Below, piece after piece: positions 215-5,415 of a stretch of 5,781 bases of DNA (position 1 is the first letter of the stretch; the number at the start of each line of letters is the position of its first letter). A program made the translations under genes and the position numbers. The DNA is from a bacterium (GTDB lineage Bacteria; Blakebacterota; Blakebacteria; Blakebacterales; Blakebacteraceae), in assembly GCA_025774205.1 (NCBI GenBank), contig JALGWK010000309.1, positions 1 to 5,781 on the forward strand, in the 5' to 3' direction. The notes under the pieces are model-generated. The model did no database searches. It was not told where the DNA came from and saw only the letters and a list, made by a program, of their open reading frames with translations.

Positions 215-252
215 AAAAAAAAGGCCCACTGCAGGTTTTTCTGCAGCGGGCC
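215..252 (-). terminator. Intrinsic terminator (attenuator terminator)
   Basis: On the minus strand the arm at 252-241 (GGCCCGCTGCAG) pairs with 234-223 (CTGCAGTGGGCC) over 12 bp with a single G-U pair. The loop is the 6 nt at 240-235, and eight U residues (222-215) follow immediately. On the plus strand the wobble becomes an A-C mismatch and no T-run follows, so it works in one direction. It ends 31 nt before the ParB-like start codon and inside that gene's own leader, which marks it as a regulated terminator rather than the end of the preceding gene. Confidence 0.9.
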
Positions 253-345
253 CGAAAAAGTCCGGGTTTCAGGTCGGGTTACATGACGGTCCTCGCCACA
301 CGCCTCCCACTGCTCTGTTGCGAGCGCCACCACCAGGTGCGTGTG
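215..345 (-). promoter_or_regulatory. Trp-type transcription attenuator
   Basis: Mutually exclusive RNA stems can be read directly. The octamer GCAGTGGG occurs twice: at 313-306 inside the leader frame and at 232-225 in the 3' arm of the terminator. The upstream copy can pair with CCCGCTGC at 250-243 (8 bp, one G-U), which removes the 5' arm of the terminator: an antiterminator. A protecting structure is also visible. CACACGC (345-339), just before the three Trp codons, pairs with GCGTGTG (303-297), and inside it GCTC (325-322) pairs with GAGC (315-312), hiding the start of the octamer. A ribosome stalled at the Trp codons (335-327) would cover 345-339 and 325-322, free the octamer and favour antitermination. 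With enough Trp-tRNA the ribosome moves on and the more stable terminator forms. The logic is that of known trp leaders; the pairing is done by eye without energy calculation. Confidence 0.82.
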
Positions 346-362
346 CGGTTCCCTTTGATCAT
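279..362 (-). CDS. Trp-rich attenuator leader peptide (trpL-like)
   Basis: A 27-codon reading frame: ATG at 362-360, TAA at 281-279. The peptide starts MIKGNRTRTWWWRSQQ, with Trp at residues 10-12 encoded by three consecutive TGG codons (335-327). A good ribosome site, GGAAG (372-368), lies 5 nt before the ATG. The short basic peptide with a run of Trp followed by Arg resembles trp leader peptides, for example the WW-R of E. coli TrpL and the WWW of rhizobial and actinobacterial trpE leaders. It is not expected to act as a protein; its translation senses charged tRNA-Trp. The frame overlaps the competing RNA stems and ends 27 nt before the terminator stem. The tail after the Trp codons is longer than in E. 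coli, and the antiterminator octamer is encoded within it (codons 17-19). It is too short for routine gene callers. Confidence 0.82.
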   Translation of the reverse strand: MIKGNRTRTWWWRSQQSSGRRVARTVM

Positions 363-2424: not shown

Positions 2425-5415
2425 TCAGATGGTTACACGTTCAGACGTTGAAAGAGCCCATATCTCCGAACTGACCGGGCGCCCGGATACGCCGGTGAGC
2501 AGCATCCGATAGGCCATGAGCTGTCCCTGGTAGCGATCCTTGAGGGCGCCGTTCGAGATGATACCGGTCTTGTAATCCACGATGAGGAGATCCCCTGAAG
2601 CGTTCTCCAGGATGAGGTCGGCGGTACCGGTCAGGACCGAAATATCGGTGCCCGCGAAACTGATCAACTCATCGGGGATATCGGTGACCGCCATCGGCCA
2701 CTCAGCCGCCGCCATCGGCCACTCAGCCGCCATCGGCAGCCAGCCCTCCGATCCGGCTGTTTCCATCAGCGCCAGACCATTTTCGACCAGTTGACGACAC
2801 TCATCTTCCAGTCCGGCCGGATCGGCCGGATCGGCAACCAGCCTGCAGACCTCTCCGGCGTTCGCCTCCCCGGAGAGGAGGAGTTCCATTGCCTCGTGCA
2901 CCCGTGTCCCGCGCAACTTCGCGTACCATGAACTCCGCTCGATCGGGAAGTCCCCGCCACTCTCTTCAGATCCTGGCTCATCCCCCTGCCACCGCCCGAG
3001 ACCGGAAGCTCGGGCAGCTCGTGACAGCCACGCCTGTTTGACGACCTGCCGCCAGGCAGTCCGCGCCTCTTCCCGGTGCCCGACCGCGACCATGATCTCT
3101 TCATCGGTGGGAGCGGTCAGATCGCGGGGCAGACGATGGTGGCGGAGTTCCACCTGCTCCGGTTCAGGCGGAGAGACCCATTCAACCAGCCCTCCTTCCG
3201 ACATTTCCTCTTCCGCCAGTTTCCTGAGACCGTACTCCAGCGGCTGGAGGAATCCCTTCCCGGCTTCTACCTCGGAAGAGCGACTGCAGACGACCACATG
3301 CTCACGAGCCCGCGTAAAGGCCACATAGAGCATCCGTTTCCCTTCTCTGTCCTGCTCCTCTTCCTCCGCGCTCTTTCGGTCGGGCCAGTCGTACGGTTTC
3401 AACCGGGCGTCCCTGACCGCCACCGTGCCCTGTTCCCGGTCGGGGATCGCGGTGTCCTTGAAGGTCGGTGAGTAACTGCGGTCGAGGAGCGCCACCACCG
3501 GGAACTCCAACCCCTTGGCGGAGTGGATCGTCATGATCGTCACGGCTCCCCCTCCCTCCCCGACCAGCCCTGACTCCTCCTCCACGGCCGCCTGCTGCTG
3601 TTTTTCGAGATACCGCGCCAGACCGGGAAGGGTACCGGCTTCGGCGGCGCCGGCACCGGCCAGGGTCGTCGCGGCCTCTTCCCAGGCTCCGGCGATATCG
3701 AGCAGTTTGAGCAGGTTCGCCATCCGACGCTCCCCGTCAGGCTTGAGGGCGTGCAGGGGCAGAGCCCTGGTCCGATCGAAGATGGCCCGCAGCACTTCCG
3801 ACGGGGCCATGAAGGAAGTGTCGTGGTGCAGGTCGGCCAGGATCTCCCTGGCAACCAGCAGCGGAGCGTCCTCCTCGGGATCGAGATGCCCGTCCGGGAC
3901 CGCCGCCAGGTCCTCCAGGTAACTGAAACTGCCGGCGCTTGCCGCGAGTCTGACAAGGCTCTCGTCTGATACCCCGAAGTAGGGGGAGCGGAGGGCTGCC
4001 ACGATGGCTACTTCATCGGAAGGATCGGCCAGAGCCCTGAGCACCGGGATCGTCTGGACGATCTCCAGTCGGTGGAAGAACTCCCGTCCCCGGGTGAGGC
4101 GGCACGGGATCCCATACCGTTCGAGCTCCCGTTCGAAAATCCGAACCCCGGTATAGGTTCTGACCAGGATCGCGATATCCCCATAATCAAGTGGTCGGTC
4201 CTCACCCGATTCCCGGTCGGGGATATGCATTCGCCCCGCAATCCTGCTCTCTATCCAGCCCGCCAGCGCCCGCGCTTCCGCGATCCGCAGATCATCCGTT
4301 TTCGGACCGCGCTCTTCATCACCCGGACCCATCCGCTCGAGAACCGGATCGAGATCGAGCAGGCTCACCACCGGCGCGGAATCGCCCTCGTCCCGCCAGG
4401 CCGACAGATCGTGATAATCACCCTCGGGGAGGATATCCCGGAAGAGGCGGTTGGCGAGGTTCACCAGCCCCGGTCTGCTTCGGAAATTGACTGCCAGCCT
4501 CGCCTCGGTTCCCGCTTTCAGCACCTGTTCGCGCACCTGCCTGAACAGGGCCAGGTCGGCCCGCCGGAACCGGTAGATACTCTGATTCGTGTCTCCGACC
4601 AGGAAGAGCCGCCCCTCGGCCGGCACCGCCTCAGCCAGAGTCTCCGCCCTTACCTCCGGAGCCTCTGCCAGACGCATCACGATCCTTGCCTGGATCGGAT
4701 CGGTATCCTGGAACTCATCGATCAGGATGCACCGGTACTGCTCCTTGATCTCCCTGGCGATCCCGTCATCGGACTCGAGCAGCCGTTCGGTTGCCAGGAG
4801 CAGATCATCGAAATCGAGGGCCCCCATCTCCTCTTTCCGGCGGCGGAAGATCGCGCCGATCTCCTCCGCGATCTCGACCATGATCCTGAGCATGGTGCTC
4901 TCGTAACCGGCGATCGCGGCCTTCTTCCGGCCTGACAACCCCCCCCAGGCCGGCTTCAGCCTGCCAAAGGCGATCCCGGCCTCCTCGTCCTTCTCCCATT
5001 TCGTTTTCGCTCCCGCCGTCGCGCCGACCTTCAACGGACCCAGAATACCCGCCCGGTCGTGTATGTCGGAGGCGGGGTCGGTCAACGCCGCTGCCCTGGA
5101 AATCACTTCGGATGCCTGTCCGATGAGCGTATCCCTGCCCTTTACCTGATCCGCGAAACCGACGATCTCACGGGCGGTATCGAGCAGGTCCCCGATCACG
5201 TCATCGATGCTCTCGAAACCCTCTCCCGGCATCTCGGTTTCCAGGTCGGGGAACCTCAGTACCGCTTTGACCAGGTCACGCAGGCTGCCCAGGCCCGCGC
5301 CCGCCAGCAGGGGGCCCTGCAGCGTGCTCTCGGTCGAAGCTCTCAACCGTTCCACCTCCGCGGCCACGACCGAGTCGAGCAGCAGATCGGAGGCGAGCTG
5401 ATCGAGGACAACGAA
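2425..5415 (-). CDS. AddA/RecB-type helicase-nuclease, main part (after frameshift)
   Basis: This piece carries the protein from just after Walker A to its C terminus. In-frame similarity to the family begins at FVVLDQLASDLLLDSVV (5415 onward); the first usable start in this frame is a GTG at 5367 without a ribosome site, giving 980 residues. Numbering from that GTG, superfamily 1A motifs follow in order: Walker B ILIDEFQDTDP (214-224), motif III FLVGDTNQSIYRFRRAD (255-271), motif IV NFRSRPG (294-300), motif V TIMTIHSAKGLEFP (610-623) and motif VI RMLYVAFTRARE (678-689). A PD-(D/E)XK nuclease domain ends the protein: GTRVHE (His824), GTADL (Asp917), VDYKT (Asp931, Lys933) and the Y-x-x-Q-x-x-x-Y-like segment with Gln949 and Tyr953. 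All catalytic residues are intact. Such subunits unwind and trim double-strand breaks before RecA loading, usually with an AddB partner, which is not in this window. An EWPMA repeat is noted separately. Confidence 0.9.
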   Translation of the reverse strand, partial: FVVLDQLASDLLLDSVVAAEVERLRASTESTLQGPLLAGAGLGSLRDLVKAVLRFPDLETEMPGEGFESIDDVIGDLLDTAREIVGFADQVKGRDTLIGQASEVISRAAALTDPASDIHDRAGILGPLKVGATAGAKTKWEKDEEAGIAFGRLKPAWGGLSGRKKAAIAGYESTMLRIMVEIAEEIGAIFRRRKEEMGALDFDDLLLATERLLESDDGIAREIKEQYRCILIDEFQDTDPIQARIVMRLAEAPEVRAETLAEAVPAEGRLFLVGDTNQSIYRFRRADLALFRQVREQVLKAGTEARLAVNFRSRPGLVNLANRLFRDILPEGDYHDLSAWRDEGDSAPVVSLLDLDPVLERMGPGDEERGPKTDDLRIAEARALAGWIESRIAGRMHIPDRESGEDRPLDYGDIAILVRTYTGVRIFERELERYGIPCRLTRGREFFHRLEIVQTIPVLRALADPSDEVAIVAALRSPYFGVSDESLVRLAASAGSFSYLEDLAAVPDGHLDPEEDAPLLVAREILADLHHDTSFMAPSEVLRAIFDRTRALPLHALKPDGERRMANLLKLLDIAGAWEEAATTLAGAGAAEAGTLPGLARYLEKQQQAAVEEESGLVGEGGGAVTIMTIHSAKGLEFPVVALLDRSYSPTFKDTAIPDREQGTVAVRDARLKPYDWPDRKSAEEEEQDREGKRMLYVAFTRAREHVVVCSRSSEVEAGKGFLQPLEYGLRKLAEEEMSEGGLVEWVSPPEPEQVELRHHRLPRDLTAPTDEEIMVAVGHREEARTAWRQVVKQAWLSRAARASGLGRWQGDEPGSEESGGDFPIERSSWYAKLRGTRVHEAMELLLSGEANAGEVCRLVADPADPAGLEDECRQLVENGLALMETAGSEGWLPMAAEWPMAAAEWPMAVTDIPDELISFAGTDISVLTGTADLILENASGDLLIVDYKTGIISNGALKDRYQGQLMAYRMLLTGVSGRPVSSEIWALSTSERVTI
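2691..2737 (-). repeat. Short in-frame tandem repeat in the nuclease domain
   Basis: On the plus strand CCATCGGCCACTCAGCCG occurs at 2691-2708 and again at 2712-2729, with a third partial copy (CCATCGGC) at 2730-2737. Spacings are 21 and 18 nt, so the frame is kept. It encodes PMAAEWPMAAAEWPMAV, a duplicated EWPMA segment just before the catalytic GTADL motif. This looks like replication slippage in a tolerant linker or strand. Confidence 0.8.

Follow-up and report, generated by a model that had tools for sequence, protein, structure and literature searches.

Trp attenuators precede the trp operons of Corynebacterium and Streptomyces (PMC1262725). The largest TrpB2 group, TrpB2_o, lies outside operons (PMC1854888), and TrpB2 enzymes are reported to be O-phosphoserine-dependent tryptophan synthases (Busch 2014, as cited in PMC11917138). 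SerK of Thermococcus kodakarensis is a free serine kinase with O-phosphoserine as its product (PMC5120207), and SbnI and SerK are both cited in PMC12704722 as free-serine kinases giving this compound. At the locus described here these themes appear to meet: judged from its sequence and from that of its relatives, it very likely represents a Trp attenuator of a serK-like/trpB2 operon, the products of which would make tryptophan from phosphoserine and scavenged indole.

Genomic context of the window

The window, meaning the whole stretch of DNA analysed (5,781 nt), is the complete contig C104 of genome G000. It ends inside the serK-like gene, the first 61 codons of which occupy positions 183-1 of the minus strand. 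The window's own genus was sampled with two species, G000 and its congener G001. The congener locus (public contig JALGVQ010000013.1) matches the window in its neighbours on either side and shows the order metallohydrolase-like gene, leader, terminator, ParB-fold (serK-like) gene, trpB2 and RtcB-like gene; the product of its serK-like orthologue is P0001. In G000, trpB2 was found on contig C368 and is 90% identical to that of the congener. Since the 3′ end of the serK-like gene makes up the first 36 bases of C368, C104 and C368 are very likely adjacent, with the gap inside this gene. Contamination of G000 was put at 4.8%, and the matching congener neighbourhood argues that the window contig belongs to the genome.

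Just 5′ of the leader, the minus strand of the window carries a CehA/McbA-type metallohydrolase-like gene (1757-468; weak match below cut-off), which is kept in the congener. Farther away, an AddA/UvrD-like helicase gene is split across two frames near 5415 (region 5460-5343, minus strand), and the congener copy is a single open frame of 1121 codons. Either the gene is really disrupted or the split is an error of assembly or sequencing. The helicase frame also contains an exact 21-bp tandem duplication (2688-2731), giving ...EWPMAAAEWPMA....

Leader, terminator and pairing elements

All regulatory elements lie on the minus strand. The leader ORF (362-279; ATG 362-360, TAA 281-279) has 27 codons, translates as MIKGNRTRTWWWRSQQSSGRRVARTVM and includes three consecutive Trp codons, TGG TGG TGG (335-327), the putative sensor. 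A Shine-Dalgarno-like GGAAGAG (372-366), a moderate match only, stands just 5′ of the leader ATG. A promoter-like pair (456-428) is formed by TTGACG (456-451) and TTATTG (433-428), 17 nt apart. Its hexamers and spacing are common to the window and the congener, and the spacer letters have diverged; TTGACA..TATATT precedes several leaders of other genomes. The output of a sigma-70 consensus scan did not include the conserved pair at 456-428.

Between the leader ORF and the serK-like gene, the first gene of the operon, stands an intrinsic terminator (252-215) with a 12-bp stem, GGCCCGCTGCAG (252-241) and CTGCAGTGGGCC (234-223), followed by T8 (222-215). Its calculated dG is about −25 kcal/mol, and a second analysis reported it as well. 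The octamer GCAGTGGG occurs twice without mismatch, at 313-306 and at 232-225; the leader copy (313-306) is the candidate antiterminator strand and pairs with the segment CCCGCTGC (250-243) of the terminator 5′ arm. A putative protector helix joins CACACGC (345-339) to its exact complement GCGTGTG (303-297) across the Trp codons, as had been claimed, and a small hairpin of the form GCTC-loop-GAGC (325-312) extends into the start of the octamer. The first-pass annotation had described this stretch as a complete tryptophan attenuator. On re-reading the minus strand, every one of its coordinates proved correct, and the 27-codon frame, the ribosome site, the WWW run and the 12-bp/U8 terminator were all found as claimed.

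The element is very likely a ribosome-mediated tryptophan attenuator of this operon. RNA polymerase would start near 420 and produce the leader RNA. Under a shortage of charged tRNA-Trp, the ribosome would stall on the three Trp codons and melt the protector helix, and the freed GCAGUGGG (313-306) would pair with the terminator 5′ arm (250-243), so that transcription could continue. With ample tryptophan the ribosome would reach the stop codon, the leader copy would not be free, and the 12-bp terminator would form and end transcription.

T-box and TRAP-type control are both known for tryptophan genes in other bacteria, and the RNA might accordingly be a T-box reading uncharged tRNA-Trp or a target of a TRAP-like protein. 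For either device, a Trp codon run and a ribosome site would be needless. Rfam covariance models at gathering score matched no family, the Trp leader included, either in the window or among 20 related loci, and a lax search of 183-456 gave chance-level matches only. The check with covariance models for trp leaders that had been advised thus yielded no match, and we regard a T-box or TRAP-like device as extremely improbable.

Folding and conservation of the alternative pairings

Ribosome-mediated attenuation is consistent with the predicted folds. In free folding, the segment 183-456 was more stable than its shuffled versions (z −2.5). Constrained folding, the check proposed for this RNA, was run on the window and on the congener. 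With a ribosome on the Trp codons and the RNA extending up to the terminator loop, the antiterminator formed in the window (−30.8 kcal/mol); in the congener the leader copy likewise paired with the terminator 5′ arm (about −24 kcal/mol). Placing the ribosome on the stop codon instead gave the terminator in both.

Trp runs at the place corresponding to 335-327 of the window were found in 21 leaders, and in each of these the sequence following the Trp codons was compared with the terminator 5′ arm and the best pairing of the two scored. The summed score was 364.5, against 245.6 ± 8.9 in 300 shuffles with a maximum of 271.5. Taken singly, the leaders vary. For the window, 7 of 300 shuffles paired as well as the real leader copy; for the congener, the antiterminator comprises 6 pairs (GCAGTG with CGCTGC), and 78 of 300 shuffles were as good. 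Five leaders besides the congener were likewise not significant when taken singly. In the core of the antiterminator, AGTGGG pairs with CCCACT or CCCGCT, and AGCGGG pairs with CCCGCT; comparison of AGTGGG/CCCACT with AGCGGG/CCCGCT indicates that one core pair changes on both sides. The duplicated octamer of the first-pass annotation is exact in the window, while the congener retains only the six pairs and not the eight letters. By comparison of the leaders, the conserved feature is the pairing of the leader copy with the terminator arm rather than the eight letters themselves.

The RNAalifold consensus of four leaders drawn from both phyla comprises a protector helix, the small hairpin and the terminator, and six of its pairs change on both sides. 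Here the protector helix is shifted in register by 2 and has two pairs changed on both sides, the small hairpin joins columns 26-30 with 37-41, and the terminator shows compensated changes among the four leaders.

Recurrence of the leader

Within the genus, the congener leader keeps WWW and aligns without gaps inside the frame, and its terminator and spacing are kept too. For a broader survey, 121 upstream regions of serK-trpB2 or trpB2 were scanned for a short ORF with at least 3 Trp in 6 codons together with a terminator just downstream; the antisense strand and 20 dinucleotide shuffles served as controls. This combination was present in 23 of the 121 regions; the antisense strand had none, and neither had any of the 20 shuffled whole sets. 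Counting Trp-rich frames alone gave 24, whereas the antisense strand had 1 and the shuffles averaged 0.9. The earlier judgement that chance is an unlikely origin is borne out by these counts and by the features kept in the congener.

These results also bear on a simpler explanation, in which the hairpin is merely the terminator of the metallohydrolase-like gene and the short ORF has arisen by chance. That gene is indeed co-directional, and its end at 468 lies about 215 nt 5′ of the terminator. However, the promoter-like pair kept in the congener lies between the gene and the hairpin, the controls lack the Trp-rich leaders with terminators seen in 23 regions, and the pairing of the leader copy with the terminator arm recurs. 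A terminator of this kind alone is thus very improbable, and we retain the attenuator.

The second phylum examined is that of G322. Nine of its serK-like loci have a Trp-rich leader (WWW, WWWW, WWWWW or WLWW) and a terminator before the kinase-like gene; trpB2 is visible in eight of the nine, and the contig of G447 ends before it. The contig of G414 starts too late to show a leader, and the terminator is still present. Ten trpB2 genes of this phylum without serK have the same kind of Trp-rich leader and terminator. A covariance model built from two sequences, R1, recovered the leaders of G415 and G416; in G000 and G001 it revealed no second leader of this type, with two weak or partial matches only.

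It had been stated that an attenuator would be refuted if the leaders of orthologues had no in-frame Trp run or no duplicated octamer. The attenuator stood up to this check: Trp runs with terminators were found in the congener and in the nine loci of the other phylum, and the pairing of the octamer recurs over 21 leaders. In G322, G404 and G405, which have the pair of genes, a search of the 500 nt next to serK found no leader of this kind. A WW frame in G404 was considered as a leader; it has no terminator and overlaps the chorismate mutase gene at its start, and was taken as chance.

In a wide sample, a leader was seen at 2 of about 88 trpB2 genes of other lineages, and most show none. Outside the closely studied groups, L125 (G298) and L170 (G330) have Trp-rich leaders and terminators before trpB2.

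Genes proposed to be under control of the leader

The first-pass annotation placed a ParB-like gene downstream. The gene is present, but its product is now identified by sequence as a relative of free-serine kinases, and trpB2 is next to it. P0001 matched the SbnI model with E 3e-15 over residues 17-279, the SerK model with 5e-8, and PDB chains of SbnI (4e-8) and SerK. It resembles SbnI over the full length, including the C-terminal part, and SerK over the first third. Since its scores are far below both equivalog cut-offs (56.1 vs. 350 and 32.3 vs. 380; NF033589, NF053625: SbnI / SerK), we name the protein serK-like without assigning it to SbnI or SerK. A Pfam search of the serK-like protein gave no match. 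The HE and DGANR motifs are invariant among 17 aligned full-length relatives, and the window fragment keeps HE.

The congener protein P0002 is a TrpB2, with 668 bits against a TIGR01415 cut-off of 518.85; the PDB chains closest to it are 6hul, 4qys and 6hte. Its AGGLRYHG motif has Arg as in PDB 4qys, whereas a TrpB1-like chain has Asp there. This Arg is said, after Busch in 2014, to set the specificity of TrpB2. At E ≤ 1e-100, TrpB2 occurs in 156 of 386 sampled genomes. A serK-like gene followed by trpB2 as the target explains the presence of a tryptophan switch at this place.

In the phylum of G322, a serK-like gene was detected in 17 of 82 genomes. Among closer relatives with enough contig, trpB2 follows it on the same strand in 13/13 cases, mostly immediately; in G445 and G446 several hundred bases separate the two. 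In G322, G404 and G405 the pair is flanked by a chorismate mutase gene on one side and a DAHP synthase gene on the other. In G349, G220 and G078, a less closely related serK-like gene lies immediately 5′ of a cysteine-synthase-like gene; such a pairing may obey a similar logic, in which phosphoserine would have a different user.

Where distant serK-like genes directly precede a cysteine-synthase-like gene at L022 (4683-6752), L024 and L025, a MoaD/ThiS-like gene lies nearby, and these loci are possibly phosphoserine-to-cysteine clusters. The serK-like genes of L060, L061 and L062 are ~34% identical and have no trpB2 beside them.

The predicted free-serine kinase would convert serine to O-phosphoserine, and TrpB2 would join O-phosphoserine and indole to give tryptophan. 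Such a hand-over from the serK-like enzyme to TrpB2 seems likely. It might instead be supposed that the attenuator is real, that the ParB-fold protein is a regulator or a nucleotide-binding protein, and that TrpB2 uses serine. The scores under the equivalog cut-offs would fit this. Against it stand the full-length similarity to SbnI, the invariant HE and DGANR motifs, and the strict pairing, which links the gene to trpB2 in one group and to a cysteine-synthase-like gene in the other, both products being plausible O-phosphoserine users. A role other than that of a serine kinase is accordingly unlikely, if worth keeping in mind.

Tryptophan pathway genes and the source of indole

Searches of G000 and G001 (86% and 82% complete) detected neither TrpA nor TrpC (PF00218) nor TrpD, with all 14 control genomes positive in each search, and no TrpB1 turned up alongside TrpB2. 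Since TrpA, TrpC and TrpD were not found in the genus, indole is probably scavenged there. In the second phylum, searches did not find TrpA and TrpC in G322 (97% complete) or TrpA in G404 and G405 (95% and 97%). Across this phylum, TrpA is rarer in genomes with a close serK-like gene (3 of 14) than in the others (45 of 68); the Fisher test applied to these counts ignores relatedness.

The attenuator could otherwise serve synthesis from indole made de novo, the trp pathway genes being merely missing from the assemblies. The incompleteness of both genomes of the genus leaves room for this, and G415, G416 and G446 have the serK-like/trpB2 pair together with TrpA and TrpD. On the other hand, all three genes are missing from both G000 and G001, and the absences in G322, G404 and G405 concern nearly complete genomes. 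We consider de novo indole quite improbable as the explanation for the genus, and prefer indole salvage.

Comparison with known systems

The attenuation mechanism is classical; the controlled operon and its wide occurrence were not found described. In the open-access literature, we found no paper holding both 'TrpB2' and 'serine kinase', and no description of a serK-trpB2 operon or of a trpB2 attenuator of this kind. On balance, we lean towards a widespread undescribed module, in which a ParB-fold serine kinase would feed TrpB2 with O-phosphoserine for the conversion of scavenged indole to tryptophan, with the attenuator as an undescribed RNA family of at least two phyla and with a sister module of kinase and cysteine-synthase-like enzyme.

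For TrpB2 outside trp operons, the switch and the predicted supplier of the co-substrate point to a role in making tryptophan from indole and phosphoserine on demand. For cells without the normal tryptophan pathway, the recurrent switch suggests how indole capture is controlled. 'ParB-like' genes that annotation would call partition proteins gain a testable function, and the leaders found provide a set for a new RNA family model.

Like the trp attenuators of Escherichia coli, Corynebacterium and Streptomyces, the window has a leader ORF with at least two Trp codons and the same order of antiterminator and terminator, with a leader strand that competes with a terminator arm. Unlike them, the target is serK-like/trpB2 or trpB2 alone and not a trp biosynthetic operon, and several of the genomes lack the de novo pathway. 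The kinase-like protein resembles SbnI of Staphylococcus aureus in its full-length similarity, its ParB-like fold family and a common HE region, and it shares with SbnI and SerK a predicted O-phosphoserine product usable by a neighbouring PLP enzyme; it differs in its low scores against their equivalog models and in its partner, which is TrpB2 rather than an enzyme of siderophore or cysteine synthesis. The TrpB2 itself conforms to TrpB2 as known (PDB 4qys, 6hte, 6hul; TIGR01415) in its score above the cut-off, its nearly full-length alignment and the Arg of AGGLRYHG, and departs from it in lying within an operon, downstream of a kinase-like gene and of a Trp attenuator.
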